Notes under the pieces: generated by a model
Database searches by the model: none
Seen by the model: the letters and a program-made list of their open reading frames with translations, nothing else
What the model was told of the DNA's origin: nothing
NCBI GenBank assembly: GCA_027297435.1
Contig: JAPUIA010000260.1
Span: 1 to 45,653 of the forward strand
DNA length: 45,653 nucleotides
Source of the DNA: Gammaproteobacteria bacterium
GTDB lineage: Bacteria > Pseudomonadota > Gammaproteobacteria > Pseudomonadales > Azotimanducaceae
Reading direction: 5' to 3'
Shown here: positions 1,279 through 23,665 of the stretch, one piece after another
Numbering within the stretch: position 1 is the first letter of the stretch
Layout: each line of letters opens with the position of its first letter
Translations under genes and position numbers: made by a program

Positions 1279-1932
1279 TCAAGGCTGCAACCGCTCTACC
1301 TGCCAGACTCCGCCGTTGAGCAAGTAACGAAACCGGTCATGCAGTCGTGCTTCGCGGCCTTGCCAAAATTCGTAGTAGTGCGGGCGGAGACGATATCCGC
1401 CCCATTCGGTCGGCCGCGGCACGTGACCGTCTGGATACCGGACCTTAAGTTCAGCTACTGCAGTTTCGAGACTATCACGGTCGCGTATCGACTCAGATTG
1501 AATGGACGCAGCCGAAGCAAAACGGCTCGCTTCCGGGCGGCCTTGGAAGTAGTCGTCGGCCTCCTTATCAGACAGCGTTTCGACGCGCCCGGTGATACGT
1601 GCCTGGCGATCAAAATCGCGCCAGTAAAACAGCCCCGATGCAACTGGATGGCTGGCCAGTTCCACGCCTTTCTGACTGCGATAATCGGTATACCAGCAAT
1701 AACCATCCGCATCGAAGTGTTTCAAAAGTACGATGCGCACGGACGGTGTGCCGTCTTCGGCAACCGTCGCCAGCGCCATGGCGGTAGCGTCTTTGGCTCC
1801 GAGGGCGGTGGCAGCTTCTAGCCAGCCAGCAAATTGAACCAGCGGATCATCGGCCAGGTCGCGTCTACGCAGAGGTTCAGACTGGTACTCTCGACGTACT
1901 TCACGTTGGTCTTTGGGGTCGTTCACGCGCAA
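1279..1932 (-). CDS. pdxH: Pyridoxamine 5'-phosphate oxidase
   Basis: This FMN enzyme oxidises pyridoxine or pyridoxamine 5'-phosphate to pyridoxal phosphate, the last step of vitamin B6 synthesis and salvage in the cytoplasm. The 217 residues match the usual length of about 218. Visible family features are LRRRDLADDPL near residue 21, the FMN-binding RIVLLK (66-71), YTDYRSQKG (81-89), RPTEWGGYRL, the substrate-site segment FWQGREARLHDR, and a C-terminal ERLQP. The start is uncertain: TTG at 1932 or GTG at 1926 (MNDPKDQ...), neither with a good ribosome binding site. A 22-bp tandem repeat lies just upstream. Confidence 0.95.
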   Translation of the reverse strand: MRVNDPKDQREVRREYQSEPLRRRDLADDPLVQFAGWLEAATALGAKDATAMALATVAEDGTPSVRIVLLKHFDADGYCWYTDYRSQKGVELASHPVASGLFYWRDFDRQARITGRVETLSDKEADDYFQGRPEASRFASAASIQSESIRDRDSLETAVAELKVRYPDGHVPRPTEWGGYRLRPHYYEFWQGREARLHDRFRYLLNGGVWQVERLQP

Positions 1933-1955: not shown

Positions 1956-2072
1956 TTGACGAGAAGCCGCGGGCGCTTTGACGAGAAGCCGCGGGCGCTT
2001 TGACGAGAAGCCGCAGGCGCTTTGACGAGTCGCCGCAGGCGCTTTGACGAGTCGCCGCAGGGTATTGACGAG
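1956..2072. repeat. 22-bp tandem repeat, five units
   Basis: Five head-to-tail units start at 1956, 1978, 2000, 2022 and 2044, and a sixth TTGACGAG fragment ends the array at 2072. Each begins TTGACGAG and continues through a GCCGC-rich half. Units 1-3 carry GAGAAGCC and units 4-5 GAGTCGCC, so the array has diverged along its length. The period is two helical turns and not a multiple of three, so it is not coding. It fills the gap between the divergent pdxH and acyl-CoA synthetase genes. TTGACG resembles a -35 hexamer. Confidence 0.85.
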
Positions 2073-2091
2073 GCGTGCCAGCCGGTACAAT
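2065..2091 (+). promoter_or_regulatory. Possible promoter of the acyl-CoA synthetase gene
   Basis: TTGACG at 2065-2070, the last unit edge of the 22-bp array, is followed after 15 bases by TACAAT at 2086-2091. The gene's ribosome binding site (GGGGGGAA, about 2108-2115) and ATG (2124) follow. The spacing is short for a sigma-70 promoter, so this is tentative. Confidence 0.35.
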
Positions 2092-2123
2092 CGTGTGACG
2101 TAGTTGCGGGGGGAATTAATCAA

Positions 2124-3674
2124 ATGTCGTTGAGCCTCGAAGATGCCGTTGCCACTGGCATGACCATCGCCTATCACGCCGAACGCCAACCGGACGTACC
2201 GGCTGCAATCACAGACTACGGCAATCGCACTTTCGGCGAGGTGAACGCCAACGCCAATCGGTTGGCGCGGCTGCTGCGAGACTCGGGCGTTTCGGCAGGC
2301 GACAGCGTCGCGGTCGTCACAAGAAATCGGCCGGAGTTCATCGAGGCGTTGGCGGCCGCGAGTCGCTCGGGGCTTCGCTTTACACCGATCAACTTTCATC
2401 TGCGGGGTGAAGAGATCGGTTACATCGTCGACAACTGTGAAGCGAAAGCGTTCGTCGCCGATGCGACGCTGGGGGCTTCCCCGGTGGAGGCGGTCGAGCA
2501 CGCTTCCAAGTTGCAAGTGAAGTTGGCTGTGGGCGGCGGATTGGAGGGCTTCGAAGATTACGAGAACGCGATCGCAAGTTACCCGGGCGACAACATCGAC
2601 AATGCCACGCTTGGGTCGCGCATGCTCTACACCTCCGGTACGACAGGTCGTCCGAAAGGCGTGTATCGAAAAGATCGACTTCCGGAGCAGCCGCAATGGG
2701 AAGGTACGCTATCCAACTATCGTCCCGGAGAAGACATGGACCTTGTGACGGGGCCCGCGTATCACGCGGCGCCGCTACTCATCGACATCATTCAAGCACT
2801 CATTTCGGGTGTCGGCATCGTCATGATGGACAAGTGGGATGCAGAACAGGCGTTGCGGCTCATCGACCAGCACAAGGCGACCCACACGCACATGGTAGCA
2901 ACGATGTTCCACCGCCTCTTGCAGCTTCCAGAAGACGTGCGAGCAAAGTACGACCTATCGTCAATGCGTTTCATCATTCACGGTGCGGCGCCGTGCCCCG
3001 TGCACGTCAAGCAGGCCATGATCGATTGGTTCGGCCCCATCATCTGGGAATACTATGCCGCTACGGAGGGTGGCGGTGGCTTCCTGGTAAGTAGCGAAGA
3101 GTGGCTGACAAAACCCGGAACGGTGGGCAAACCCGGGCCCGATTTCGACAACAAGATACTCGACGACGACGGTCACCTCGTCGCCATCGGCGAAGTCGGT
3201 ACGATCTATATGCGGGCCCCCGACACAGGTCGCTTCGAGTATTTCAAAGACGACCAGAAAACCTCTGATTCCTATCGTGATGACTATTTCACGCTGGGCG
3301 ACCTCGGGTATTTCGACGAAGACGGCTATCTGTTCCTAACCGGTCGTTCTGCCGAGCTGATCATCTCAGGCGGGGTCAACATATACCCTCAAGAGGTCGA
3401 CAGCGAGTTGATGACTCATCCCGCGGTATACGACGTCTGCACCATCGGTATCCCAAACGACGAATGGGGCGAGACCGTAAAATCGGTCGTCGCGCTCAGC
3501 GAAGGTTTTGAACCGAGCGAGGAACTCACCGACGAGTTGCTCGCCTGGGCGCGGGATCGGCTGGCCAACTTCAAGTGTCCGCGCAGCATAGATTATGTCG
3601 AAGAGCTACCCCGCTCGGCGACGGGTAAGATTCAGCGCCGTCAGGTTCGATCCGAATACGTAGACGCCGGGTAG
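2124..3674 (+). CDS. AMP-forming acyl-CoA synthetase (FadD-like)
   Basis: It activates a carboxylic acid, probably a fatty or other hydrophobic acid, to its CoA thioester with ATP. The frame opens earlier, but the ATG at 2124 fits best: it follows a GGGGGGAA ribosome binding site and gives MSLSLEDAV, 516 residues. The AMP-binding family motifs are clear: YTSGTTGRPKG near residue 168, YYAATEGGG, GDLGYFDEDGYLFLTGR near 392 (ATP and hinge region), GGVNIYPQEVD, and PRSATGKIQRR near the C terminus with the catalytic lysine. No membrane segment is seen. The exact substrate is unknown. The gene converges on uvrB. Confidence 0.9.
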   Translation: MSLSLEDAVATGMTIAYHAERQPDVPAAITDYGNRTFGEVNANANRLARLLRDSGVSAGDSVAVVTRNRPEFIEALAAASRSGLRFTPINFHLRGEEIGYIVDNCEAKAFVADATLGASPVEAVEHASKLQVKLAVGGGLEGFEDYENAIASYPGDNIDNATLGSRMLYTSGTTGRPKGVYRKDRLPEQPQWEGTLSNYRPGEDMDLVTGPAYHAAPLLIDIIQALISGVGIVMMDKWDAEQALRLIDQHKATHTHMVATMFHRLLQLPEDVRAKYDLSSMRFIIHGAAPCPVHVKQAMIDWFGPIIWEYYAATEGGGGFLVSSEEWLTKPGTVGKPGPDFDNKILDDDGHLVAIGEVGTIYMRAPDTGRFEYFKDDQKTSDSYRDDYFTLGDLGYFDEDGYLFLTGRSAELIISGGVNIYPQEVDSELMTHPAVYDVCTIGIPNDEWGETVKSVVALSEGFEPSEELTDELLAWARDRLANFKCPRSIDYVEELPRSATGKIQRRQVRSEYVDAG

Positions 3675-5807: not shown

Positions 5808-6041
5808 TTATGCGGCCGCGGTGGCGTGCGCCGTGACCCAATGCCAAGTCACAGACTCGCCCAAGTCGAAGGCTCCATTGGCAATGACATCGAATACCTC
5901 GAACACGCATCCGTACTCGTATAGATCGGAAGGCACCACCTTATTGTGGTAGAACTCTCTAAGCATTGTGGACGTGGGCGAGGCATCGCCCAAATAATGA
6001 CGCCACAGTGTTAAGAGCTTCCGCTGCTCTGACAACTCCAT
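5808..6041 (-). CDS. Small protein of unknown function
   Basis: A 77-residue protein, MELSEQRKLLTLWRHYLGD..., rich in aromatic residues (several Trp, Tyr and Phe), with no signal peptide or membrane segment. A GGGGAAG ribosome binding site sits 7-8 bases before the ATG, which supports translation. It lies upstream of uvrB on the same strand with about 90 bases between. I do not recognise a family. Confidence 0.6.
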   Translation of the reverse strand: MELSEQRKLLTLWRHYLGDASPTSTMLREFYHNKVVPSDLYEYGCVFEVFDVIANGAFDLGESVTWHWVTAHATAAA

Positions 6042-6104
6042 TTTTTACTTCCCCGAACTCCGCGGCCATTATGCTACCGGAGCATCATGATGTCATTGTG
6101 ACAC

Positions 6105-6127
6105 CACTAAAGAATTATTCCTTAGTG
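6105..6127. terminator. Inverted repeat at the end of the Ala/Glu-rich gene
   Basis: A 23-base near-perfect inverted repeat (CACTAA...TTAGTG, with GAAT/ATTC inside) overlaps the stop codon of the minus-strand gene ending at 6115. There is no T run on either side, so Rho-independent termination is uncertain. It may mark a transcript end or a protein-binding palindrome. Confidence 0.35.
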
Positions 6128-6600
6128 TCCTTAGCTTTGTCCTCGGCTTTGTCCTCGGCTTTGTCCTCGGTTTTGTCGTCGGCTGCATCGGCTTCCTCAG
6201 CGGCGGGCTCCTCCGCCTCGACCGGTTCCTCATCCGTTGTCGCTTCCGGCGCCTTGTCTTCCGCAGTTTTCTCTTCCGGGACTTCCTCAGCCTTTTCTAC
6301 GGGTGCTTCTTTTACCTCAGCAACTTCCTCAGTAGCTTTCTCGGCGGCTGCTTCCGTTTCCGCCTCGACAGTTTCTGCCTCAACAGTTTCTGCTTCGGCG
6401 GCTTCGGCTTTTACAGCGGGTGCTTCGACGGGTTCCGGCTCCGGATCCTTCGGCAGGACCGCGTCGATCAGCTTGTGCTCCAGCAGAATGCCGATCTTCG
6501 CAGCTCCGTTGACCCATCCGCGGTCAGCGTTCTTGACGGCATAACGTTCGTTGCGTTTCTTATAGATGGTGTACTCGTCAGTCCGTACAACAACCTTCAT
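6115..6600 (-). CDS. Small conserved domain with a long Ala/Glu-rich acidic tail
   Basis: The frame opens at 6720, but the ATG at 6600 follows a good ribosome binding site (CAGGAGAAAGTC), giving MKVVVRTDEYTIYKK, 161 residues. Residues 1-45 look like a compact basic domain (YTIYKKRNERYAVKNADRGWVNGAAKIGILLEHKLI). From about residue 50 the protein is low complexity, built from EAE, AET, EEP and KAEDKAED repeats, strongly acidic, and likely disordered or helical. No signal peptide or membrane segment is present. Function unknown. It is divergent from the korA-type gene. Confidence 0.75.
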   Translation of the reverse strand: MKVVVRTDEYTIYKKRNERYAVKNADRGWVNGAAKIGILLEHKLIDAVLPKDPEPEPVEAPAVKAEAAEAETVEAETVEAETEAAAEKATEEVAEVKEAPVEKAEEVPEEKTAEDKAPEATTDEEPVEAEEPAAEEADAADDKTEDKAEDKAEDKAKDTKE

Positions 6601-6796: not shown

Positions 6797-8686
6797 ATGC
6801 CCGCCCTTTTGACCGATAGGCCGAACGTGAGGCAAGAGTTCGCAGACAAGATCAGTCACGTGGTGCGTTTTGCGGGAGATTCCGGCGACGGCATCCAGCT
6901 GCAGGGTCAGCAATTCACCGTCGCGTCCGCCCTTGCCGGTCACGATCTCGCGACGTTGCCCGATTTTCCTGCGGAAATTCGCGCGCCTGCGGGTACCCGT
7001 TACGGGGTTTCCGCCTTCCAAATACAGTTTGGCGGCGACCGCGTCACGACGCCGGGGGACGCGCCAGATGTGCTGATCGCACTGAATCCGGCTGCACTGG
7101 TTGTCAACCTGGCAAACCTGGTACCCGGTGCGCTGATTATCGTCGATGAGAGTGCTTTTACGGCCCAGCGATTGAAGCGCGCCAGTCTCGACACCAATCC
7201 ACTGGAAGATGACACCCTAGAGAAGTTCGACGTTTGCCCGGTGGATATCTCACACTTAACGCTGGAGGCCGCGAAGCCGTTCGGCCTCGGGGCCAAAGAT
7301 GCGATGCGCTGCAAAAACTTCTGGGCGCTGGGCTTGGTGCTGTGGATGTTCGACCAGCCACGCGACGCGACGGCCCATTGGATCCAGACCAAGTTTGCGA
7401 ACAACGAAGCCGTTCGAAACGCCAATCTCGCCGCTCTCAGTGCCGGCCACGCATACGGCGAGACGGCCGAAATGGGCCACATACTATCGCAGCACCCCAT
7501 TCCCGAAGCACCGCTCGATGCCGTCGAGTACCGCACCATCACGGGGGCCGAAGCGATGGCGCTGGGACTCGTCGCCGCTGGAGAATTAGCCGACACGGAA
7601 CTGCTGTTTTGCTCTTACCCGATTACGCCGGCCTCTTCGCTACTCCATCACCTCACCGGTTTGGACGATGCGGGCGTTGCCACCTTTCAAGCCGAGGACG
7701 AGATCGCCTCCATCTGCGCGGCCATTGGCGCTTCCTATGCAGGCAAGCTCGGCGTCACGTCAAGTTCCGGACCGGGCATTGCGCTGAAAACCGAAGCCCT
7801 CGGCTTAGCCGTAGCGACAGAATTACCGCTCATCGTCGTGAACTCTCAGCGCGCGGGTCCATCGACGGGTATGCCTACCAAGACCGAACAGAGCGATCTC
7901 TATCAGGCAGTCTACGGACGCAACGCCGATACCCCCTTGCCTGTTCTCGCGGCCCATTCGCCGGCCGATTGTTTCGAGACGGCCATAGAAGCGGTGCGTA
8001 TTGCGCTGCGTCACATGACACCCGTCATCTTGCTGACCGATGGTTACATCGCCAACGCCTCGGAGCTTTGGCCGATACCCAATATCGACGACTTTCAGGT
8101 GATCACCAACAACAAACCCACCGAGACGAGCGGCGACATCTGGGAACGCGACGCCGAAACGCACGCGCGGTTGTGGGCGGCACCCGGGGACAAGGGGTTC
8201 ATCCACCGCATCGGCGGCATCGAGAAGGACATCGTCACGGGCAACATCTCCTACGATGCGGACAACCATCAGGCAATGACGAACTTGCGTCAGGCCAAAG
8301 TCGAGAGCGTTGCCAACTTCATTCCCGAACAGACCATCGATCAGGGCACAACTGCCGGTTTGGCGGTTGTCGCCTGGGGATCGACCTATGGCGCCGTCTA
8401 CCAAGCCGTCAAAGAGTGCTTGCAAGAAGGCTTGGCGGTCGCCCACATTCATCTGCGCTATATCAGCCCTTTGCCTAAGAATCTTCACGACTTGTTAACC
8501 CGATACGACAAGCTGCTGGTTCCGGAACTCAACACGGGACAGCTTGCGACGCTGTTGCGCGACAAGTTGTTGGTCGACATCCAACAACTGAACAAGGTGT
8601 CGGGTCAGCCGTTGACCGTCGCAGAGGTCAAGGAGGCCATCGCCCGGTTGGCCAACCCGCGTATGCAGGAGGTAACCAATGCCTGA
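6797..8686 (+). CDS. korA: 2-oxoacid:ferredoxin oxidoreductase, fused gamma-alpha subunit
   Basis: With the next gene it forms an enzyme that decarboxylates a 2-oxoacid, probably 2-oxoglutarate, to the acyl-CoA while reducing ferredoxin. The N-terminal part (about 20-210) is the gamma domain, with FAGDSGDGIQLQGQ at 25-38. The alpha domain follows, with SYPITPASSLLHHL near 272, QAEDEIASICAAIGASYAG and TSSSGPGIALKTEALGLA. The length, 629 residues, suits the fused two-subunit type. The start is uncertain: ATG 6797 overlaps a TAAAAT that could be a -10 box, and GTG 6827 after GATAGG is an alternative. It overlaps the beta-subunit gene by 8 bases. Pyruvate or another oxoacid cannot be excluded. 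Confidence 0.85.
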   Translation: MPALLTDRPNVRQEFADKISHVVRFAGDSGDGIQLQGQQFTVASALAGHDLATLPDFPAEIRAPAGTRYGVSAFQIQFGGDRVTTPGDAPDVLIALNPAALVVNLANLVPGALIIVDESAFTAQRLKRASLDTNPLEDDTLEKFDVCPVDISHLTLEAAKPFGLGAKDAMRCKNFWALGLVLWMFDQPRDATAHWIQTKFANNEAVRNANLAALSAGHAYGETAEMGHILSQHPIPEAPLDAVEYRTITGAEAMALGLVAAGELADTELLFCSYPITPASSLLHHLTGLDDAGVATFQAEDEIASICAAIGASYAGKLGVTSSSGPGIALKTEALGLAVATELPLIVVNSQRAGPSTGMPTKTEQSDLYQAVYGRNADTPLPVLAAHSPADCFETAIEAVRIALRHMTPVILLTDGYIANASELWPIPNIDDFQVITNNKPTETSGDIWERDAETHARLWAAPGDKGFIHRIGGIEKDIVTGNISYDADNHQAMTNLRQAKVESVANFIPEQTIDQGTTAGLAVVAWGSTYGAVYQAVKECLQEGLAVAHIHLRYISPLPKNLHDLLTRYDKLLVPELNTGQLATLLRDKLLVDIQQLNKVSGQPLTVAEVKEAIARLANPRMQEVTNA

Positions 8687-9683
8687 ACTATCGTTCAAGA
8701 ACTTCGCCACTGACCAGGAAGTACGCTGGTGCCCTGGCTGTGGCGACTATTCGATCTTGAAAGCCGTTCAACGCTCGTTGGCCGAGGCAGGCGCCAAGCC
8801 TGAAAACACCGTATTCGTATCCGGAATCGGCTGTGCTTCCCGTCTACCCTATTACATCGAGTCTTACGGTTTTCACACCATTCATGGGCGCGCACCGGCC
8901 ATCGCGACGGGTGTCAAATTGGCCAATCCTAAGCTCGACGTTTGGGTTATCACCGGGGACGGAGACGGCCTGTCGATCGGCGGCAATCACCTGCTGCATG
9001 CCCTGCGCCGCAACATCGACGTCAACATTCTGCTGATCAACAACGAGATATACGGGCTGACCAAGGGCCAGTACTCACCGACGTCTAGGGTGGGTACGAC
9101 AAGCCCGTCGAGTCCCGGCGGTTCCGTTGATTCACCGATAGACCCGGGACGGTTCGCGATCGGTGCGGGCGCCACGTTCTTCGGCCGCGCCGTGGATATC
9201 GATCAAAAGGGTCTACCCGGGTTGTTGAATGAGGCCCGCGGGCACGAGGGCACATCGTTCATTGAGATTCTGCAGAACTGCATCGTCTACAACAAAGACG
9301 TCTTCGATGACGTTGCCAACAAGAAAACCGCGGCCGATCACCAAATTCACGTCCAACACGGCGAGCCCTTGCTGTTCGGGAAGACCAACGACAAGGGCTT
9401 GCGCCTCAACCCCAGTACGCTGGCGCTCGAAGCAGTGATGGTCGGCCACGATGGCGTGACGACTCGTGACATTCTGGTGCACGACGAAACCAATGCGACG
9501 TTCGCCCACCTGCTACTGTCCATGGAAGCCCCACTGCCGACGGCGATGGGGGTCATCCATCGGCGCAGGCTCGAGAGCTTCGATCGTGCATTCTGGAACA
9601 GCAAAACCCAAAAACGCCGACAGAAAGTGGTGAATTTGCTGCATCAAGGCAACCTGCTCGACCGCCGAAATGGGTCAGAGTAA
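8679..9683 (+). CDS. korB: 2-oxoacid:ferredoxin oxidoreductase, beta subunit
   Basis: This is the thiamine-diphosphate-binding subunit. WCPGCGDYSILKAV (17-30) carries cysteines that hold a 4Fe-4S cluster, and a further conserved Cys is in LQNCIVYN. The ThDP/Mg motif is GDGDGLSIGGNHLLHALRRN with NNEIYGLTKGQYSPTS. The protein has 334 residues, and its ATG lies inside the end of the alpha-subunit gene. No ferredoxin or delta-subunit gene is adjacent, so electron acceptors must be encoded elsewhere. The last codons (LLDRRNGSE) are read from a repeat that recurs just downstream, so the natural C terminus may have been altered by that insertion. Confidence 0.88.
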   Translation: MPELSFKNFATDQEVRWCPGCGDYSILKAVQRSLAEAGAKPENTVFVSGIGCASRLPYYIESYGFHTIHGRAPAIATGVKLANPKLDVWVITGDGDGLSIGGNHLLHALRRNIDVNILLINNEIYGLTKGQYSPTSRVGTTSPSSPGGSVDSPIDPGRFAIGAGATFFGRAVDIDQKGLPGLLNEARGHEGTSFIEILQNCIVYNKDVFDDVANKKTAADHQIHVQHGEPLLFGKTNDKGLRLNPSTLALEAVMVGHDGVTTRDILVHDETNATFAHLLLSMEAPLPTAMGVIHRRRLESFDRAFWNSKTQKRRQKVVNLLHQGNLLDRRNGSE

Positions 9684-9767
9684 AGTGCGAGAGTAAACTT
9701 ACGACCGCCGAATGGGGTCAGGGTAAAGTGCCAGAGTAAATTTACTCTGGCACTTTACCCTGACCCC
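9659..9767. repeat. Direct repeat plus 54-bp perfect palindrome
   Basis: CGACCGCCGAA followed by a (T)GGGTCAG(A/G)GTAAAGTG-type segment occurs twice, starting at 9659 and 9702 (period 43). The second copy's 9714-9740 is followed at once by its exact reverse complement, 9741-9767, so 27 bp pairs with 27 bp with no spacer. The GGGGTCAG...GTAAA motif is the kind found in dispersed repeats of gammaproteobacteria, often linked to REP-associated tyrosine transposases (recollection, not searched). As RNA it would form a very stable hairpin after korB and could stop transcription. Confidence 0.8.
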
Positions 9768-11767: not shown

Positions 11768-14700
11768 ATGCACACTGCTATCGCTTGGTTCGTGCGCAAC
11801 CCGGTTGCCGCCAATTTACTGATGTTCATTCTCATCATCGGCGGGGTGATGGGATTGATAACCGTCAACCAGGAAGAATTCCCCAACATGGACGTGCAGG
11901 TGGTCTCGGTCACCGTCCCATACCTAGGAGCCGCCCCGGAAGAAGTCGAACAAGGGGTCTGTATCCGCATCGAAGAAGCGATCGAGGGTGTGGAGGGTAT
12001 CGACAAGATTCGCTCCACGTCTAGCGAAGGAACCTGTTCGGTGCAAGCTGAGTTGGACCTCGATTCCAATGAGATCGTCGCGCTCAACGAGATCAAGAGT
12101 CGTGTGGACGGCATCAACAGCTTTCCGGTCGAGACCGAAAAGCCCATCGTCTCGAAACTGACGATCAGCCGCTCAGTCCTGCAGATCGCGCTTTCCGGAA
12201 ACGCGGACGAGCGCGTTCTGAAAGAAATCGGGCGCGAAATACGCGATGACATCGCCGCGATGGACGGCATTTCCCAGGTGAATCTTACCTACGTACGACC
12301 GTACGAAATCTCCATCGAGGTCTCGGAGTATGCCCTGCGTAGGCACGGCCTAACGCTGGATGAAGTGACCCGAGCGGTACGCAATACGTCCCTCGACATG
12401 CCCGGGGGGACGATCAAAACTGCAGGCGGCGAGATCCTCATCCGCTCCAAAGGTCAGCGGTATTGGGGCGAAGAGTTCGAACACATCGTCATCGTCACAC
12501 GCGAGGATGGTACGCGGGTTACGCTCGGTGAGATCGGCGAGATTCGTGACGGTTTCGAAGAGGGCGATTTGTCCGCACGCTTCAACGGTGAACCGGGAGT
12601 CGTGATCAAAGTGATGCAGATCGGCTCGCAAGATCTATTGCAGATCGCGGACGATGTCAAAGCCTACGTGGAGCAAATTCGATCCAGCATTCCAGAAGGA
12701 CTGACGTTGACCATCTGGACGGACAGTTCGGCGAGCCTGATCGAACGACTGAATACGCTCAACAGCACGGCCGCCGGCGGGCTCGTTCTGGTACTTCTCA
12801 TCCTGGCATTGTTTCTACGTTTTCGTCTAGCGATGTGGGTGGCTGCGGGCATTCCGATAGCGCTACTCGGTACCTTGGCCATCTTCCCGTATGCCGATAT
12901 CACCATATCCACAATGACCGTCATGGCCTTTATCCTGGTGCTTGGTATTCTCGTCGATGACGCCATCGTCGTCGGCGAACGGGTTTACGCGCACGAACAG
13001 ATGGGTAAGCCGCCCGTACAGGCTGCCATCGACGGCACTTGGGAAGTTTCCATTCCTGTCATCTTTGGCGTGTTGACCACCATGGCGGCATTTCTGCCGC
13101 TGGTATTCTCCACCAGCCGCATGGCCGATTTCTTTGCGGTGATCGGCTACGTCGTCATCATCAGCTTGGTGTTTAGTATCATCGAGTCGCAGCTCATCTT
13201 GCCCGCCCACCTTGCCCATAGAAATCACGAAGAAGCAGACCACGGTCTCGGCAAGTTCTGGAACAGCATTCAGGGCACGCTATCGGACGGCTTACAGAAT
13301 CTTGCCAACCGCTACTACATTCCGTTTGCACGCAAGGCCATCGAATGGCGGTATGTCAGCGCCGCCGTAGGCGTGGGTATTTTGATCTTGGCCGTTGCGC
13401 TCATAGCGAGCGGACGTGTCGTCTTCGGTTTCTTCCCTTCCGTCGAAGGCGACCGCATCTACGCTCAACTGGAAATGCCTGAAGGCGTATCCGTCGCCGT
13501 GACCACTCGGGCGGCGAAGCAAATCGAACGCGGCATACAAGAGCTCAACACCGAGTTCACTGCACAACTGGAACTCGATCATCCATTCATCGTCAATCAG
13601 CTAACCAGCATCGGCATGAGCGTTCCCAAAACCGGTCCGCCTAGGCGTCCCAGTCCCGGCCGTAGCCACTTCGCCGAGATCGTCATCGAGCTCGTCCCAC
13701 TTGGCGAACGCGACAACATGAGCGCCAAAACGGTTGCCAAGCGCCTGCGAGAGCTGGTCGGCGATATCCCGGACGCTGTGAAATTGTCATTCAACGCCGA
13801 CATGTTTTCGGCCGGCGAGCCCATCAACTATGAGTTGAGCGGGAAAAACGTCGAGGAACTACGCACGGCCGCTGCGGAGCTTCGCGCAGAGTTGGCCCGC
13901 TACGACGGAGTCTTCGACATTACCGACTCGTTTCGCGCCGGCAAGCAGGAAATCAAGCTCAACCTGCTGCCGGAAGCCCGCAATCTGGGGCTGACGCTTC
14001 GCGATCTGGCACGCCAGGTACGCAGCGCCTTTTACGGCGCGGAAGCGCAACGCGTACAACGCGGACAAGACGACGTGCGGGTGATGGTGCGATTTCCGGA
14101 ATCGGAGCGCACGTCAATCGGCGATCTGGAAGACATGTACATTCGCACACCTGACGGCAAAGAAGTGCCCTTCTATAGCGTTGCCAGTTTCGAACTGGGC
14201 CGCGGCTTCTCAGCCATACGCAGAACCGACGGTCGACGAGTCGTGAACGTAATCGCGGACATAGATCGTTCCACCATCCAACCCGAAGAAGTGTTGAGCA
14301 GCATCGACAGCGAGGTGATGCCTGATTTCAAAGCCAAGTACCCACGTTTGTCGATCAGCTTGGCCGGCGAACAACGAGAGTTCTCCAAGGCGATGTCGGG
14401 TTTGCTCCAAGGCGCGTTGTTGTCCCTGGTGATCATCTACACGTTGCTCGCCATCCCGCTCAAGAGTTACGTGCAGCCCCTGGTGATCATGAGCGTCATC
14501 CCGTTTGGCGCCGTCGGCGCAATATTGGGTCATTGGGTGATGGGCATCGACCTGATGTTCTTCTCCGCACTCGGAATCGTCGCGCTGTCCGGTGTCGTGG
14601 TGAATGCCAGCTTGGTGCTAGTCGACTACGTCAATCGACGGCGTCGGGAGGGTATGGGGGTCGACGAAGCGCTCATCACTTCCTGTTCCATCCGGTTTCG

Positions 14701-14962
14701 ACCGATCGTTCTGACGTCGGTGACGACGTTTGTGGGCTTGATTCCGCTCATGAGCAACGTAACGCCGATTACCGCACCGTTCGTGCCCATGGCGGTGTCG
14801 CTGGCCTACGGGGTACTGTTCGCAACGTTCATTACGTTGCTCTACGTCCCCGTTCTGTATCGCATTGCAGAAGATATATTCGGGTGGGATGCCGTAGCGC
14901 AAGGCGCGCAGGTCGTCGGGGAAAAAGACATCGCGCCCAATCCGCCCTTAACGACCCGGTAG
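11768..14962 (+). CDS. RND efflux pump, inner-membrane permease
   Basis: The 1064-residue proton-driven exporter has the AcrB-like layout: TM1 near the N terminus (VAANLLMFILIIGGVMGLI), a large periplasmic domain (about 35-330), TM2-6, a second periplasmic domain, then TM7-12. The TM4 proton-relay pair is present (GILVDDAIVVGERVYA). The matching TM10 segment reads GIVALSGVVVNASLVLVDYV, so the lysine of the AcrB relay is absent, as in several divergent RND subfamilies. Substrates cannot be predicted. It lies in the GntR-type operon and probably works with the preceding adaptor and a TolC encoded elsewhere. Confidence 0.93.
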   Translation: MHTAIAWFVRNPVAANLLMFILIIGGVMGLITVNQEEFPNMDVQVVSVTVPYLGAAPEEVEQGVCIRIEEAIEGVEGIDKIRSTSSEGTCSVQAELDLDSNEIVALNEIKSRVDGINSFPVETEKPIVSKLTISRSVLQIALSGNADERVLKEIGREIRDDIAAMDGISQVNLTYVRPYEISIEVSEYALRRHGLTLDEVTRAVRNTSLDMPGGTIKTAGGEILIRSKGQRYWGEEFEHIVIVTREDGTRVTLGEIGEIRDGFEEGDLSARFNGEPGVVIKVMQIGSQDLLQIADDVKAYVEQIRSSIPEGLTLTIWTDSSASLIERLNTLNSTAAGGLVLVLLILALFLRFRLAMWVAAGIPIALLGTLAIFPYADITISTMTVMAFILVLGILVDDAIVVGERVYAHEQMGKPPVQAAIDGTWEVSIPVIFGVLTTMAAFLPLVFSTSRMADFFAVIGYVVIISLVFSIIESQLILPAHLAHRNHEEADHGLGKFWNSIQGTLSDGLQNLANRYYIPFARKAIEWRYVSAAVGVGILILAVALIASGRVVFGFFPSVEGDRIYAQLEMPEGVSVAVTTRAAKQIERGIQELNTEFTAQLELDHPFIVNQLTSIGMSVPKTGPPRRPSPGRSHFAEIVIELVPLGERDNMSAKTVAKRLRELVGDIPDAVKLSFNADMFSAGEPINYELSGKNVEELRTAAAELRAELARYDGVFDITDSFRAGKQEIKLNLLPEARNLGLTLRDLARQVRSAFYGAEAQRVQRGQDDVRVMVRFPESERTSIGDLEDMYIRTPDGKEVPFYSVASFELGRGFSAIRRTDGRRVVNVIADIDRSTIQPEEVLSSIDSEVMPDFKAKYPRLSISLAGEQREFSKAMSGLLQGALLSLVIIYTLLAIPLKSYVQPLVIMSVIPFGAVGAILGHWVMGIDLMFFSALGIVALSGVVVNASLVLVDYVNRRRREGMGVDEALITSCSIRFRPIVLTSVTTFVGLIPLMSNVTPITAPFVPMAVSLAYGVLFATFITLLYVPVLYRIAEDIFGWDAVAQGAQVVGEKDIAPNPPLTTR

Positions 14963-15002
14963 ATTGTCAATCGCGCCCAAAGGCGCCCGCGATGCTGTTC
15001 CG

Positions 15003-16343
15003 ATGAACGTCACCCTGCCGAACAGCCCCAAAGAATGGCACCGGAAGGTCTGGTCGTTGTCGTGGCCGATGATCCTCGCCAACCTGACCATCCCCCTGGT
15101 CGGCGTCGTCGATACCGCCATCATGGGCCGGTTACCCGATCCGCGCTACGTCGGCGCGATTGCCGTCGGCGTGACCATCATGAACGCCTTGTACTGGATG
15201 TTCGGGTTCCTGCGCATGGCCACCACCGGCCTCGCCGCGCAAGCGCTCGGTGCCGACAACCTCAACGAATTGGCAGCGGTTGCCCTACGCGCCGCCATGA
15301 TCAGTCTCGCCATTGGCCTCGCTCTAATACTCCTGCAGGTACCATTGAACCTTTTAGCTTTTTGGCTTTTCGAGGCTAGCGACCAGGTCGAAACGCTGGC
15401 GTCCGCGTACTTCGGCATTCGCATCTGGGGCTCCCCCGCGATGCTGCTCTACATGGTCGAGCTCGGGGTGCTGTTCGGCTTGCAGCAGATGCGCGCGACG
15501 CTGCTCATCAGCGTTATCCTCAACGTCACCAACGTGTTGCTCGATCTGTTGTTCGTGATCGGTTTCGGATGGGGCGTGGAAGGCGTCGCCTACGGTACGA
15601 TATTGAGCGAATGGCTCGCGGCCGGTCTCGGTTTGATCATTACCGTGAACGCCTTCAAACGCAGCGGCCGGGCGCTCGCCATTCCCGAGCATCTCTTTCA
15701 GCGCGAGCGACTTGCCGCGCTGTTTCACGTCAGCTCCAACCTTATCGTGCGCACCTTCTTTGTCCAGCTGCCGTTTTTCATGCTCACCGCACTCGGGGCA
15801 ACCCTTGGCGATCTGGTGTTGGCGGCCAACGCCGTACTCATGCAGTTTTTCTTCATCATGGCCTTCGGTTTGGACGGATTCGCCCACGCCGCAGAAACCT
15901 TGGCCGGCCATGCCTTCGGCGCCCGCGATCCCGAGCGCCTGCGCAATGCGAGCAAGTTCTGTGCTCTATGGGCGGGCATCATCGCGTGCGCCTTGAGCCT
16001 GATCTACGCCGTGTTGGGTCCTCAACTGATCGATCTCTTGACCCTGCTGCCGGAAGTTCGCGAAACGGCGAGCCAGTACCTTCCGTGGTTGATCGCGCTT
16101 CCCATCATCTCGGTGTGGGCGTTCATGTTCGACGGTATCTTTATCGGTACGACACGTACGGTGGAGTTACGCAACAGCATGTTCGTTGCACTCGCCATCT
16201 ACCTGATTGCCATCTGGTTGAGCTTCGATCGCTTCGCCAACCACGGCATCTGGCTGTCCATGTCGCTGTTCATGGTCGCCAGAAGCCTGTTACTAGCCCT
16301 ACAGTACCCGCGAATAGAGAAGTTGGCCGCGGTGCGCGACTAG
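15003..16343 (+). CDS. MATE-family efflux transporter (DinF-like)
   Basis: A multidrug/toxin-extrusion antiporter of the inner membrane. About 12 hydrophobic segments, starting with WPMILANLTIPLVGVVDTAIMGRL, are typical of the DinF/NorM group, including the VDTAIMG motif of helix 1. The ATG at 15003 gives 446 residues; an in-frame TTG at 14964, two bases after the pump gene, would add MSIAPKGARDAVP. Neither has a strong ribosome binding site, so translational coupling to the pump gene is plausible. Having RND and MATE pumps in one operon suggests a joint response to a toxic compound. Confidence 0.88.
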   Translation: MNVTLPNSPKEWHRKVWSLSWPMILANLTIPLVGVVDTAIMGRLPDPRYVGAIAVGVTIMNALYWMFGFLRMATTGLAAQALGADNLNELAAVALRAAMISLAIGLALILLQVPLNLLAFWLFEASDQVETLASAYFGIRIWGSPAMLLYMVELGVLFGLQQMRATLLISVILNVTNVLLDLLFVIGFGWGVEGVAYGTILSEWLAAGLGLIITVNAFKRSGRALAIPEHLFQRERLAALFHVSSNLIVRTFFVQLPFFMLTALGATLGDLVLAANAVLMQFFFIMAFGLDGFAHAAETLAGHAFGARDPERLRNASKFCALWAGIIACALSLIYAVLGPQLIDLLTLLPEVRETASQYLPWLIALPIISVWAFMFDGIFIGTTRTVELRNSMFVALAIYLIAIWLSFDRFANHGIWLSMSLFMVARSLLLALQYPRIEKLAAVRD

Positions 16344-17671: not shown

Positions 17672-17776
17672 TTATTGGTCCACGTCAAACGTTTGCATGG
17701 CCGTATGAGCGTCTTCTAGCGCGAAGCGTTACAATCGCCGGTTTTCTCGATGCACAAAACCAACCAGGGGGAAATC

Positions 17777-19036
17777 ATGGCCGAAGAAAACGGTTTGCAA
17801 GCCGATATGTACAACCTGACGATGTCGGAAGAAGCGTTGCCGCTTTTGGATGCGGTGAAAAAGCACATCGCTGACAACGTGGAACCCATCGTCGACGAGT
17901 TCTACCAGCTTGGCGAAGGTCGCGAGGACCGCTGGAGTTGGGCACCGGGTCAACTCGAGCTCTTGGATGGCGCAAAGCAAAAGGCCAAAGACAGCGGCCT
18001 GTGGAACTTCTTTCTACCCGATGCCGATACCGGCGAAGGCCTCAAAAACCTCGACTACGCCTACATCGCGGCCGAGCTTGGCAAGACACCGCTCGCCTCG
18101 GAGTCGTTGAACTGCAGCGCGCCGGACACGGGCAACATGGAGGTATTGGAACGCGTCGGCACCGAGGCTCAAAAAGAACAATGGTTGAAGCCGCTGTTGA
18201 ACGGCGAGATTCGTTCCTGTTTCGGCATGACAGAACCGAACCTGGCCTCCTCGGATGCCAAGAACATCGGCACGAAAGCGGTTTTAGAAGGCGACGAGTG
18301 GGTAATCAACGGCGAAAAATTCTACATTTCCGGTGCCGGCGATCCACGCTGTAAAATCATGATCTGCATGGTCAAGACCAGTCCGGACGCACCGCCGCAC
18401 CGCCAGCAATCACAAATCTTGGTGCCGATGGACACCCCGGGTGTCAACATATTGGGTCCCATGCATGTATTCGGCCACGATGATGCACCACACGGCCATA
18501 TGCACATCCTGTTGGAGGACGTACGCGTACCGAAGGACAACATGCTGCTCGGCGAGGGCCGCGGTTTCGAGATCTCTCAGGTACGTCTGGGCCCCGGGCG
18601 CATCCATCACTGCATGCGCTCCGTCGGCCAAGCCGAAAGAGCCCTGGATCTCATGGTGCGCCGCGGCATCAGCCGCGAGGCTTTCGGCAAGCCTATCGCC
18701 CAACTAGGCAAGAACATCGAGGTAATCTCTCGGGCCCGTATCGATATCGAAGCCATGCGCCTCATGGTGTTACACGCGGCCAAGGCGATGGACGTCCTCG
18801 GCAACCAAGAAGCCCGGATCTGGGTACACATGGTGAAGGCGATGGTTCCAGAACGGGTTTGCCAGATCATCGACCAGGCGATCCAGATGCATGGCGCCAC
18901 CGGTGTTTCACAGTGGACACCATTGGCCGGCATGTACACCGGACAACGCACGTTACGGTTGGCGGATGGGCCGGACGAAGTGCACCATCTCGTCGTCGGT
19001 CGCGCAGAACTGCGTAAGTACGGTGGTATGGCTTAG
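17777..19036 (+). CDS. Acyl-CoA dehydrogenase
   Basis: An FAD enzyme that introduces the alpha-beta double bond in an acyl-CoA, passing electrons to ETF. ATG 17777 follows a GGGGGAAATC ribosome binding site and gives 419 residues; the upstream ATG at 17750 lacks one. Family signatures: CFGMTEPNLASSDAKNI (substrate/FAD loop), WVINGEKFYISGAGDP, the helical C-terminal half with SREAFGKPIAQLGKN, and IQMHGATGVSQWTPLA followed by RTLRLADGPDEVHH. The last resembles ACAD10/11-type long-chain enzymes, where the catalytic residue is Asp in the DGPDEVH segment. A TACAAT at 17730-17735 may be its -10 box. Confidence 0.92.
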   Translation: MAEENGLQADMYNLTMSEEALPLLDAVKKHIADNVEPIVDEFYQLGEGREDRWSWAPGQLELLDGAKQKAKDSGLWNFFLPDADTGEGLKNLDYAYIAAELGKTPLASESLNCSAPDTGNMEVLERVGTEAQKEQWLKPLLNGEIRSCFGMTEPNLASSDAKNIGTKAVLEGDEWVINGEKFYISGAGDPRCKIMICMVKTSPDAPPHRQQSQILVPMDTPGVNILGPMHVFGHDDAPHGHMHILLEDVRVPKDNMLLGEGRGFEISQVRLGPGRIHHCMRSVGQAERALDLMVRRGISREAFGKPIAQLGKNIEVISRARIDIEAMRLMVLHAAKAMDVLGNQEARIWVHMVKAMVPERVCQIIDQAIQMHGATGVSQWTPLAGMYTGQRTLRLADGPDEVHHLVVGRAELRKYGGMA

Positions 19037-19090: not shown

Positions 19091-20473
19091 TTACCCCTGG
19101 AACGCGAAACGGACCCCCGTGCGCACCGGCATGGGGCGTCCGCCGACCAGGTACGGCTTGAAGCGCCATCTGTCGATCGCGCGCAGCGCAGCTTCTTCAA
19201 ATTTCGAATCGCTGCTTACGGTGACGTGGGCATCGATTACCTTGCCGGTTTCGGAAACCGTGAACAACAGCTCCACCCAACCGTCCCCCGAGGCTCGACG
19301 CGGATAGGTGGGCAACGCTTGGCGGCGGGCTTCGAGTTCGCCGATACGATAAATTTTATCGAACTCGCCAGACCGTGCTCTGACCAACGCACGTTGGTAT
19401 AGAAGCTCGTTTTTCACTTCACCGAGAGCATCGGTGGCGGCCCCGGCTGCTTCTGCCGAGCCAATCGACGTTTCCGCTTCCACGAGATCTCCCGCTGCTG
19501 TGTGACTGCGAGCTCTATCAAGCAACGCTTCTGCCACCAGCGCCTTGCCGCGCAACGCGGCTTCCGACTGCGGGTCTTTAGACAGCACGGACTCGAATAG
19601 CGCTAGCGCGTTCGGCTCGTCGGGCGCGGCTAAACGGCCCTTCTGCAGAGCCACCGATGCAGCCAACAATTCGTCTTGAATCGTTTGGTCCTGCACCATG
19701 CGGGTCCACTGCTCGGTCAGCGCTTCCGCTTCGGCCAGTCCCGGGGCGTTCGGATCGACGGACTTGGCAGTCGCGATGAAGCCGCGGGCTTTCTCATGCT
19801 CTTGGGCAAACGCCGCCGTTTGCGCAAAGCCCAAGAATCGTTGCGCGATGGCTTGGATGCCCTGCTTGGCGTTGGCATTGCCGGGTTCCAATGCCAACAT
19901 CTGCCGGTACGTTGCCAAAGCGTTGGTACCCTTAGGCTTGGTCAGCCGCCCCGCAGAAATCTGTCGGATCGCCGCTTGCGCCAGCGTGTCGAGTTGCTCG
20001 TAACGATTGATTCGATCGAGTATCTGTAGCGCGTCTACGTCGCGAGGTTTGACGGCAATAATACGCTCCGCGTTGTGACGAGCCACCTGCCAGTCGTTAC
20101 GAAACACCGCCGCTTCGGCGGTATTCAAGAGATACGTTACGACCCGCCGTATACCCGCAAGCGAAGCTGCATGCTCGGAATCCTGCGTTAGCGCACGTTG
20201 GTAGTAGTAAAGTGCGTTGTCCGTCGCCGGTTCTACGATACGACCGGCAGCGTAGGCACCGTTACCACGTTGCGCCCAGGCATCGACCATGCCATCGACG
20301 CTCCCCGTCGGAAGGACTATTTCGATCGTGGCGATTTCCGGCAGCACAAGTAGCTGTCGCTCGACGCCCTGTTTCAGATAAATCCAGCTTAACATCACAC
20401 CTGTTATGACGACGAGCGGGGCAAACGCAAAACTGCGCATCAACCCGGCACCGTTCGTGGCATCCACCGCCAT
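19091..20473 (-). CDS. TPR-like periplasmic protein with TonB C-terminal domain
   Basis: The 460-residue protein has one N-terminal membrane anchor (FAPLVVITGVMLSWIYL, about 17-33). A long helical middle follows, with repeated motifs such as ALYYYQRALTQDSEHAASLAGI, ALATYRQMLALEPGNANAKQGI and ALALFESVLSKDPQSEAALRGK that look like tetratricopeptide units. The C terminus (about 365-458) is a TonB-like domain: GWVELLFTVSETGKVIDAHV, FEEAALRAIDRWRFKPY. It starts two bases after the response-regulator stop, so the three genes form an operon. The role may be envelope assembly or energy transduction; no proline-rich TonB spacer is present. Confidence 0.82.
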   Translation of the reverse strand: MAVDATNGAGLMRSFAFAPLVVITGVMLSWIYLKQGVERQLLVLPEIATIEIVLPTGSVDGMVDAWAQRGNGAYAAGRIVEPATDNALYYYQRALTQDSEHAASLAGIRRVVTYLLNTAEAAVFRNDWQVARHNAERIIAVKPRDVDALQILDRINRYEQLDTLAQAAIRQISAGRLTKPKGTNALATYRQMLALEPGNANAKQGIQAIAQRFLGFAQTAAFAQEHEKARGFIATAKSVDPNAPGLAEAEALTEQWTRMVQDQTIQDELLAASVALQKGRLAAPDEPNALALFESVLSKDPQSEAALRGKALVAEALLDRARSHTAAGDLVEAETSIGSAEAAGAATDALGEVKNELLYQRALVRARSGEFDKIYRIGELEARRQALPTYPRRASGDGWVELLFTVSETGKVIDAHVTVSSDSKFEEAALRAIDRWRFKPYLVGGRPMPVRTGVRFAFQG

Positions 20474-20475
20474 GG

Positions 20476-20919
20476 CTATCCGGTGCTCCTAAAGGACCTG
20501 AACCATCTGGCGAACCTACGGCCGGACGTAGCATCGGTTCCCGGATGGGATGTGTCGGCGTCGCCCCCTAAAACTTTGTTGATCGCCGAGTTGAGCCAGA
20601 TTCGACACTGTCCGCCCTGAATGGGTTTCAGCAAGAATCGGAAAACCTGCCCGGTCATCAGAATTCGCGCGGTTTGCGGCGCTCCGCGTTTGGCCTCGGA
20701 CAACATCTCTACGCCAGTCATTTCCGGCATGCGTTGATCGGATATCACGACGTCCACTGAGGCGTCGAGCACTTTCAACGCTTCGGCGCCGGAGTTCGCG
20801 ACGAGCACCTGGTACTCACGACGAAACAGCGCCCGCATCGACGTCAACACCCGCTTTTCGTCATCGACAAACAGCAACATTGGGCGATTTTCGGGCAACA
20901 TCGCAGCAGGCTCGCTCAT
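20476..20919 (-). CDS. Response regulator with internally shortened receiver domain
   Basis: The ATG at 20919 overlaps the kinase stop (ATGA). The 147 residues start as a normal receiver: acidic pair DD 19-20, phospho-acceptor D61 in VVISDQRMP, switch T89 in ILMTG, and K98 in FRFLLKP. In CheY-like receivers the Thr and Lys are about 22 residues apart; here they are 9, so about 13 residues (helix 4 region) are missing in frame. No output domain follows, only a short basic tail (GRRFARWFRSF). It may be a non-functional remnant or a modified single-domain regulator. It is paired with the adjacent kinase. Confidence 0.75.
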   Translation of the reverse strand: MSEPAAMLPENRPMLLFVDDEKRVLTSMRALFRREYQVLVANSGAEALKVLDASVDVVISDQRMPEMTGVEMLSEAKRGAPQTARILMTGQVFRFLLKPIQGGQCRIWLNSAINKVLGGDADTSHPGTDATSGRRFARWFRSFRSTG

Positions 20920-22785
20920 GCCGCTGCCTCCGCCTCTCCGCCCCTGATCGGAAAGCCAAGGGTGATGCGTGTACCGTGCCCCACTTTCGAGTCGACGAGA
21001 ATCTGCCCGTGATGTTCCTCGACTATTTGTCGCACGATCGAGAGACCGAGCCCCGTGCCTTCGCCGACCGGTTTCGTGGTGAAAAACGGATCCATGATCT
21101 TGTGCAGATGTTCTTCGGGTATACCGCAGCCGGTATCTTCGAAGACGATTTCCACCCAATCGTCGGCACAGCGTATCGTGATGCTCAGCCGTCCCTCACC
21201 GTTCATTGCCTGCACCGCGTTCGTGATCAGATTGATGAAAACTTGGTTGATGCGAGACGGTGAACAGGTGATACGCGGCACCTCCGAAAAGTATTTCTCG
21301 ACTTCGATTCCGGTCCTGAAAAGATTCTTGGTGATGTTCAGCGTTTTCTCGATGCCGTCGCGCACATCGAATTGATCTTCGCCCGCACGATCGAGACGGC
21401 TGAAATCTTTGAGACTTTGCACAAGCTGGCTGATCTGATTGAGTCCTTCAACGCTGTCGGCGCTCAATGTCGTTACCTCGGCGATGCCTTCCTGAACGGT
21501 TTTGACATCGAGTGAGCGACGCTCCCGCAATAAGTTCTGCACGGCGCGTTTGGCGTCTCCGGAATTTCGCGCCTGGACGATCGGCATGGTCGCCTCGATG
21601 TAGGCGCTGAGATCACCGATGATCTCGGCGCTGACGGTGGTGTTGTTGAGCACAAACAACAGCGGTGTATTGATTTCATGCATGACACCGGCAACCAGCT
21701 GGCCCAGCGACGACATCTTTTCGGCTTGCACCAGTTGCACCTGCGATTCTTGGAGTTCCTGGTAGGCCGATTCTAAATCTGCGGTGCGTTCACCGACTTT
21801 TTCTTCGAGTTCTTCGTGAGAGACGTTCAGCACCTTATAGCTGGATCTGAGGCGCAAGCCGAAGTATGCAAGCACGCACAGCAACAGCACGGTATATACG
21901 TTGAGCAACACGCGCGCGTCATTGACCGTCGACAACGTATAAACGTAGTCTGACGTCGCACCTTCTTTTACCTCGGCAGCGACCTGCTGCAAACCGACCA
22001 GGTCCATCGCGACCCTGTCGGCATCCAAGGCCCTTCGCGCGATCACCAATCGGCGCGCCGCGTCCAGTAGATCCGTAAAGAGATTCCGTTCCGCTACTGA
22101 CAGGTCGTCCGACGGTATGGCCATACGTTCGATGAGCTCATCGACTAGCTGCAAATTAGCCGGTTCTCCGGATGACACCAAGTCGATGATTTGAGCGGTT
22201 ACTTGAAATACGCGATCGGCAAGGCCGGCACGCCTGGATTCGCGCAACCGCGCAACAAAACTCTGACTTTCATCCTCGATAAACGTGTAGTCCGAAACGT
22301 AGGTTGTGAAATGCTGTTCGAACAGTTCCACCTCTTCCTCGAGGTTCTGCGCCCTGGACGCTAACGCCTGATAGACGCCGTCGACTTCCGCGACGTCCAG
22401 CAGCTGGCCCAACCCGGAATCGATCGCATTGAACGCGATCATCGCCGGACGCCTGAGATGCGATCATCGCCGGACGCCTGAGATGCCCGAAAATCGAGGT
22501 CGCGACGTAGATCTCCTGCAACTCACCATCGATAGAAACTACCGTCTCCGCCAAGATTGCGGCACGCTCGATGAGTTCGGAGGTGTAGTCGACGCGAGAA
22601 CGAACGCTGGAACCAACCAATCGGTCGATAGATACGCTAAGGTCGCTTACGTACCGCAGCTTCGTGTCGATGTCGCGATAGGAGTCTTGGTAGGGGAACG
22701 ACGATACCAGTAGCAGCAGGCCAAGCATCGCGACGGCGATCACAACACTCAAAAGAGCAACAACTAAGCCAGTCGGTCTCGGCAT
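20916..22785 (-). pseudogene. Sensor histidine kinase, frameshifted by a 25-bp duplication
   Basis: Two frames together encode one kinase. 22785 to about 22435 gives an N-terminal part with membrane helix LVVALLSVVIAVAMLGLLLL and a periplasmic helical region. From 22442 the other frame continues with a second helix (VYTVLLLCVLAYFGL), a coiled coil, the H-box MHEINTPLLFVLNN, then N ([11 protein letters not shown]), G1 (DTGCGIP), F (DPFFTTKP) and G2 (GTGLGLSI) boxes. Removing one copy of the 25-bp repeat at 22435-22484 joins them into a 614-residue reading frame. An ATG at 22442 could still start a 508-residue form that lacks the first helix, though without a ribosome binding site. Confidence 0.85.
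22435..22484. repeat. 25-bp exact tandem duplication inside the kinase gene
   Basis: 22435-22459 and 22460-22484 are identical (GCGATCATCGCC...GAGAT). As 25 is not a multiple of three, the second copy shifts the reading frame. Deleting either copy restores an uninterrupted kinase gene. Confidence 0.95.
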
Positions 22786-22957: not shown

Positions 22958-23665
22958 CTAGGCGATCGACCAGTTTTCGCCGAAGGGTCGAATCAGGACG
23001 TTGAACGTCCAAGCCGATCTGGCTTGGTGTGCTACGTGGTAACACTCGTCCGCGATATCGCGGGGATGGCAGAAGAAATCATCCGGCTTGTCCGCGAAAC
23101 GCTTGCGGGTCCAGGGTACGTCTATGACCGCATCGATCGCGATGAACGCAACGTGTACACCTTTCGGGCCCAGATGGCGCGCCATCGACTCACAAAGAAT
23201 ACGCTGGGCCGCCTTGGTAGGCGCAAAACCCGCAAAGTTTTCCACGCCCCGATAGGCGGAGGTGTTGCCGGTACAGAGTATCGCGCCATGCCCCTGTTCG
23301 ATCATTTGCGGCGCTGCGGCTTGCGCAAGATGCAGGAGCGCCATCGTGTTGATCTGAAAGTTTCGGTTCAGCACGTCGGGATCGATGCTTAGAAAATCTC
23401 CGAAAGCGCCCCCTACCGCGTTGTGGATGACGATGGAGGGCGCCCCAAGCTCTGTCCGTACTTGCTGCAACGTTGCTTTGAGCTGCTCCGTTTCGCTGAC
23501 GTCGCACGTGTAGGCCTTGGTGTTGACCGTCGCTTGCTCGATCTCATTCAGGCGTTCGGTATTGCGCGCGAGCATTGCAACATCATAGGTTTGGGCAAAC
23601 CGCTCTACCAACGCTCTACCGGTGCCGGGACCGACCCCGGTGACTAAGCAAACTTCTCGACTCAT
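22958..23665 (-). CDS. Short-chain dehydrogenase/reductase-like protein
   Basis: A 235-residue Rossmann-fold protein with the NAD(P) motif TGVGPGTG (9-16), the NAG-equivalent HNAVGGAFGDF, and helix 5 segment GFAPTKAAQRILCESMARHLG. The classical YxxxK catalytic pair reads FAPTK, so the tyrosine is phenylalanine while the lysine is kept, and the usual upstream Ser region is GNTSAYRG. Catalysis may use other residues, or the protein may bind cofactor without standard chemistry. No signal peptide. Its 5' neighbour, the amidohydrolase gene, ends 27 bases upstream on the same strand. Confidence 0.85.
   Translation of the reverse strand: MSREVCLVTGVGPGTGRALVERFAQTYDVAMLARNTERLNEIEQATVNTKAYTCDVSETEQLKATLQQVRTELGAPSIVIHNAVGGAFGDFLSIDPDVLNRNFQINTMALLHLAQAAAPQMIEQGHGAILCTGNTSAYRGVENFAGFAPTKAAQRILCESMARHLGPKGVHVAFIAIDAVIDVPWTRKRFADKPDDFFCHPRDIADECYHVAHQARSAWTFNVLIRPFGENWSIA

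Follow-up and report, generated by a model that had tools for sequence, protein, structure and literature searches.

Two lesions in a conserved two-component signaling block of a gammaproteobacterium, probably an early stage of gene decay

The window analyzed here (the whole stretch of 45,653 nucleotides from one contig of the source genome) carries a three-gene signaling block in which two adjacent genes are damaged: a histidine kinase gene is broken by an exact tandem duplication, and the response regulator gene that follows it contains an internal deletion. Both lesions are present in the assembly, the corresponding genes of relatives are intact, and the block was not found in congeners. 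The probable explanation is that a conserved two-component module was recently inactivated and is on its way to loss in the source genus, i.e., ordinary gene decay caught early. The module, conserved within one Pseudomonadales family, combines a membrane histidine kinase, a double-receiver response regulator, and a TPR/TonB protein. In the source genome a spontaneous 25-bp tandem duplication, of the kind expected from replication slippage, appears to have disrupted the kinase recently, and an in-frame deletion in the regulator, presumably by illegitimate recombination, has removed helix 4 of receiver 1 together with the linker and most of receiver 2. The resulting kinase-regulator pair is most likely non-functional. 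Decay is favored over an on/off switch because the regulator carries an internal deletion as well and the kinase gene was not found in congeners. Pseudogene formation is a general route by which two-component systems are lost, and the present block resembles it in its frame break, its damaged partner, and its absence from sister species, with no difference in kind, except that the process seems here to have been caught early. As such, the block would be a clear case of a conserved signaling module leaving a lineage.

Lesions in the kinase and regulator genes

The histidine kinase gene lies on the minus strand, running from an ATG at 22785 to a stop codon that ends at 20916 (features are collected in the table below). 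The preliminary description had claimed that an exact 25-bp tandem duplication at 22435-22484 breaks its frame, and this was confirmed by both TRF and string comparison. TRF on the window reports 2.1 copies of a 25-bp unit with 100% matches, the copies standing head to tail with zero mismatches, and two further matching bases past the second copy (22485-22486) bring the repeat to 27 bp. The duplication is flanked by a 2-bp repeat (GC). In a random sequence of 45.6 kb with equal base frequencies, arithmetic gives an expectation of ~4e-11 exact tandems of unit 25. A 161-base query spanning the duplication has a single match in the source genome, a draft assembly in 311 contigs (97.78% complete, 2.56% contaminated). 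The number 25 equals 1 modulo 3, so that the copy number of a unit of this length within a coding region shifts the reading frame. When one copy is removed, the kinase comprises (22785-20916+1-25)/3 = 614 codons plus a stop; the arithmetic behind the 614-residue protein proposed earlier thus holds, and the same length, counted from the aligned start, occurs in 3 of the 13 orthologues measured (L040, L042, and L054), the others having 616-666 residues.

The frame break leaves two pieces. The N piece is 171 aa long, of which approximately the first 109 are native and the remainder out of frame; it has no Pfam match at E 0.01 and would yield a short membrane peptide whose tail is nonsense. Its hydropathy reaches a peak of 3.06 in windows starting at residues 7-9, which agrees with the earlier assignment of membrane helix one to the kinase. 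The C piece would require an internal start at its ATG and would be made without helix one. It matches HATPase_c in Pfam (E 1.2e-29), with HisKA falling below the cut-off (23.6 of 26.9 bits), and it retains the H-box, N, G1, F, and G2 motifs (HEIN, NAVQA, DTGCG, FFTT, and GEGTGL), so that by its H-box and ATPase motifs it still qualifies as a histidine kinase. A Pfam scan of the sensor region in four intact orthologues found no family at E 0.01.

Table. Features of the signaling block and its flanks in the window
Feature	Position	Strand	Remarks
Acyl-CoA dehydrogenase	17750..19036	plus	Flank on the other side of the block; abuts the short-chain dehydrogenase in 4 block-less congeners
TPR/TonB_C protein	19091..20473	minus	Third gene of the conserved block; 460 aa, frame intact
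Response regulator	20476..20919	minus	In-frame internal deletion; 147 aa, ATG overlaps kinase stop
Kinase C piece	20916..22442	minus	508 aa if started at ATG 22442; remaining sensor region, then membrane helix 2, H-box, HATPase_c
Kinase N piece	22270..22785	minus	Membrane helix 1 and start of sensor region, then out-of-frame tail
Duplication copy 1 (25 bp)	22435..22459	minus	String comparison, TRF
Duplication copy 2	22460..22484	minus	Identical to copy 1; string comparison, TRF
Short-chain dehydrogenase	22958..23665	minus	Upstream neighbor of kinase; same neighbor in 3/16 named relatives (L046, L047, L053)

The block had been described earlier as a signaling operon, a correct name for the genes it contains; two of them, however, are damaged, and the deletion in the regulator had been missed. 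In this gene, receiver 1 up to ILMTG is joined to the QVFRFLLKP tail of receiver 2, the fusion following receiver 1 as far as the conserved threonine-glycine in strand 4. All 17 relatives with a complete regulator gene have both receivers (the gene runs off the contig end in two more, L052 and L005), and 157-299 residues found between the junction points in each of these 17 are missing from the window regulator. The junction is a glycine codon common to both sides, and therefore microhomology over a few bases was probably involved. The fusion keeps the invariant residues of a 14-sequence alignment (the DD pair, D, T, and K) and scores 52.7 bits against Response_reg (cut-off 30.2), with a match that ends at position 79 of 111. 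The regulators of L040, L054, and L047 each have two matched Response_reg stretches, the best reaching 110 of 111.

In the predicted structure of the fusion (mean pLDDT 75.6 overall), strands 1-4 and helices 1-3 are modeled with high confidence, and neither helix 4 nor strand 5 is formed; the strand-5 sequence is drawn as a short helix of low confidence (residues 91-100, mean pLDDT 58). A control model of the intact L054 regulator, made by the same procedure, shows all five strands in each receiver (mean pLDDT 75.0). The fusion would thus fall short of a complete five-fold beta-alpha receiver, with the conserved residues kept and helix 4 and strand 5 missing.

Orthologues, congeners, and the ancestral state of the block

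Orthologues were sought in two sets of genomes, one of 58 (the source genome and 57 relatives) and one of 206 from the family (source genome included), and no second genome of the source species was found in either. At the kinase cut-off of E 1e-80, 20 of the 206 family genomes, the source genome among them, carry an orthologue. The 19 others have no internal stop and open frames of 621-688 aa, and the source kinase is broken relative to every one of them. Independent damage in all relatives, which the preliminary description had named as a possible refutation, is therefore contradicted by intact genes. Sixteen of the 19 orthologues belong to the genomes of the named loci L040-L055, metagenome-assembled genomes labeled Pseudomonadales, Pseudomonadaceae, or Gammaproteobacteria; eight further loci in the scan for named relatives are distant kinases from other phyla or classes (25-43% identical).

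When each kinase piece was given its own row in an alignment with the 19 orthologues, both pieces carried the duplicated stretch HLRRPAMI, every orthologue had room for one copy only, and a second copy or repeat at the duplication site was absent from all 19. Because these orthologues are all open and have no second copy, the one-copy state can be taken as ancestral and the duplication as derived. The earlier view that the event is recent is likewise upheld: the duplication looks recent, given 19 open one-copy relatives and a C-piece branch that is not accelerated. In a tree of 20 rows, the end branch of the C piece is 0.56 long, compared with 0.58 for the neighbor L042 after a further 0.16, and the window row is placed with support of 93/87, below the starred level. 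Relaxed evolution of the C piece was sought in this tree and not seen; the nearest relative, at 57%, was judged too distant for dN/dS. A normal branch would fit a recent break and would equally fit retained function.

The surroundings of the block are consistent in some respects and patchy in others. Among the 16 named relatives, the regulator follows the kinase in all 16, and the TPR/TonB_C gene comes next in 15 (the L052 sequence ends earlier). Upstream of the kinase, matches were found to the short-chain dehydrogenase in three and to an amidohydrolase in five, and a downstream match to the acyl-CoA dehydrogenase was found in four (L041, L044, L046, and L047). In L046 and L047 (genus g22) the block lies between the short-chain and acyl-CoA dehydrogenases as in the window, with one extra gene between them in L047, and in L053 (genus g10) it lies between the short-chain dehydrogenase and matches to the window ORFs beginning at 14964 and 11768.

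Within the source genus, the source genome is the sole one of nine in which the block was found, and two of its three block genes are damaged. None of the eight congeners has the kinase at E 1e-80 (other kinases only, best E 1.7e-28) or the TPR/TonB_C gene at E 1e-40, and with the L054 regulator as query only weak matches to receivers were obtained, in 5 of the 8 (best E 3.3e-12). Individual absences could be gaps, because the congener genomes are 90-99% complete. The short-chain dehydrogenase is present in six of the eight, and all six loci were read. At four of them (L092, L093, L094, and L095), the short-chain and acyl-CoA dehydrogenases converge within a few bases where the source genome has a 3.9-kb block, and no match to block genes at E 1e-10 was found in the stretch read. 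At the other two, the acyl-CoA dehydrogenase is absent from the stretch read (L096) or ~3 kb away (L097). Since two other genera hold the block between matching neighbors, it was most likely ancestral and was lost in the congeners; acquisition by transfer in the source species alone would be less simple than ancestral presence followed by loss. The ancestral position is drawn from these two genera, as the flanks are patchy (short-chain dehydrogenase in 3/16 named relatives, acyl-CoA dehydrogenase in 4/16). The available genomes thus form a series, from other genera with an intact block, through the source genome with two separate lesions as an apparent intermediate, to four sister species with the flanks joined. 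The series would suggest an order of events and, presumably, relaxed selection. The regulator deletion, the absences from congeners, and the four block-less loci among six are all further damage or sister-taxon loss of the kind that marks a decaying operon.

Alternative readings of the two lesions

The preliminary description had favored a reversible phase switch, in which slippage or recombination deletes and restores the 25-bp copies (27 bp of repeat) and the kinase is switched off and on accordingly. The copies are exact, the unit is not a multiple of 3, and the duplication does form a frame-shifting repeat tract within a coding region. Precedents for changes of this general type exist: the sensor-regulator gene of Pseudomonas tolaasii is reportedly pheN, and the phase-variation site of Bordetella pertussis is said to be a homopolymer tract in bvgS. 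According to titles cited in PMC12124856, a 661-bp internal duplication in the P. tolaasii gene drives phenotypic switching (Han et al. 1997, via PMC12124856), and B. pertussis undergoes frameshift phase variation of a two-component gene (Stibitz et al. 1989, via PMC12124856). Compared with these cases, the likeness to P. tolaasii is a spontaneous duplication within a two-component sensor gene, but there it is 661 bp long and accompanied by colony switching, whereas here it is 25 bp long, one state was seen, and the partner regulator is damaged; the likeness to B. pertussis is a frameshift in a sensor gene, but there it occurs in a short simple-repeat tract, whereas here it is a single 25-bp pair not found in 19 relatives. 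No description of the module or of the 25-bp duplication was found among the literature matches listed, and the passages found in PMC12817950 concern promoter repeats. Slippage back to one copy is possible, but it cannot undo the regulator deletion, and a restored kinase would feed a damaged regulator rather than the intact output partner of a phase-variable locus. Additionally, there is one pair of copies and no array, the repeat neither recurs nor is kept in any of the 19 relatives, the kinase and TPR genes were not found in any of the eight congeners at the cut-offs used, the block is gone at four of the six congener loci, and a genome sample of 160,658 bases contains no other exact tandem array. 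The phase switch was consequently rejected as the best reading and is regarded as quite improbable. Before an exact tandem duplication can count as evidence for a phase switch, the partner genes and the relatives need to be examined; the duplication alone does not suffice.

Some function could nevertheless survive, because the motifs and branch of the C piece are normal, the deletion in the regulator is in frame and spares the invariant residues, and the TPR gene is intact. A shortened kinase starting at ATG 22442 and the shortened regulator might then form a still working, rewired signaling pair, to which all kinase motifs sought in the 508 open codons, the invariant receiver residues, and a C-piece branch that is not long lend some weight. 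However, helix one and ~106 N-terminal residues are gone, leaving a single membrane helix in mid-protein, the ribosome-binding match upstream of ATG 22442 is weak (by eye), and the regulator is modeled without helix 4 and strand 5, all of which make a working pair unlikely. About as doubtful is an assembly artefact, with one or both lesions being errors of a draft genome. The fragmented state of the assembly, its incompleteness, and its contamination speak for such errors, but the neighboring genes are frame-intact relative to relatives (TPR, short-chain dehydrogenase, acyl-CoA dehydrogenase, 11768-14962, and 14964-16343), the absence of other exact tandems from the sampled bases tells against it as well, and the presence of two unlike lesions in a single operon missing from congeners is a biological pattern. 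A combined scenario, with a kinase toggling infrequently as the 25-bp duplication is gained and lost and acting on a minimal fused receiver that is still phosphorylatable without helix 4 (a coupled rewiring by two short-homology rearrangements), is conceivable but highly improbable.

Tandem repeats in the window and in other genomes

A census of exact tandem arrays with units of 12-400 (imperfect repeats fall outside it) gave four rows in the window. The 25-bp row is the only one that lies within a Pfam-supported gene and has a unit indivisible by 3. Two 22-bp rows lie between Pfam-supported genes, where they overlap only an opposite-strand ORF without Pfam support and the 5' end of ORF 2022-3674, which is probably over-long as listed, and a 12-bp row lies within ORF 5966-6544, which has no Pfam hit. 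Elsewhere in the source genome, 20 stretches from 20 of the 311 contigs, which together make up the sample mentioned above, contributed no census row, so the sampled part bears no sign of a repeat-based switching habit, and a genome-wide habit of tandem duplication was likewise rejected on these zero rows. In other genomes, 320,416 bases of 42 loci contain five census rows, every one with a unit divisible by 3. An 18-bp in-frame array of 3.3 copies (L048:5561-5619) occupies part of the linker that joins the two receivers in the L048 regulator.

With imperfect repeats included, TRF reports nine rows in the window. Two tandem units of ~157 bp (821-1134) lie just upstream of a tRNA-Val gene (1135-1211), each opening with a copy of the tRNA 5' end and continuing with other sequence. 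An imperfect 22-bp array of 5.4 copies (1956-2072) separates a pyridoxamine-phosphate-oxidase-like gene (1279-1932, minus strand) from an AMP-binding-enzyme gene (2022-3674 as listed, plus strand). A 43-bp unit is present twice, with an 88% match, at 9659-9745, where the TPP-enzyme ORF 8679-9683 ends; it contains GGGGTCAGAGTAAA, which we take to resemble a REP-type motif.
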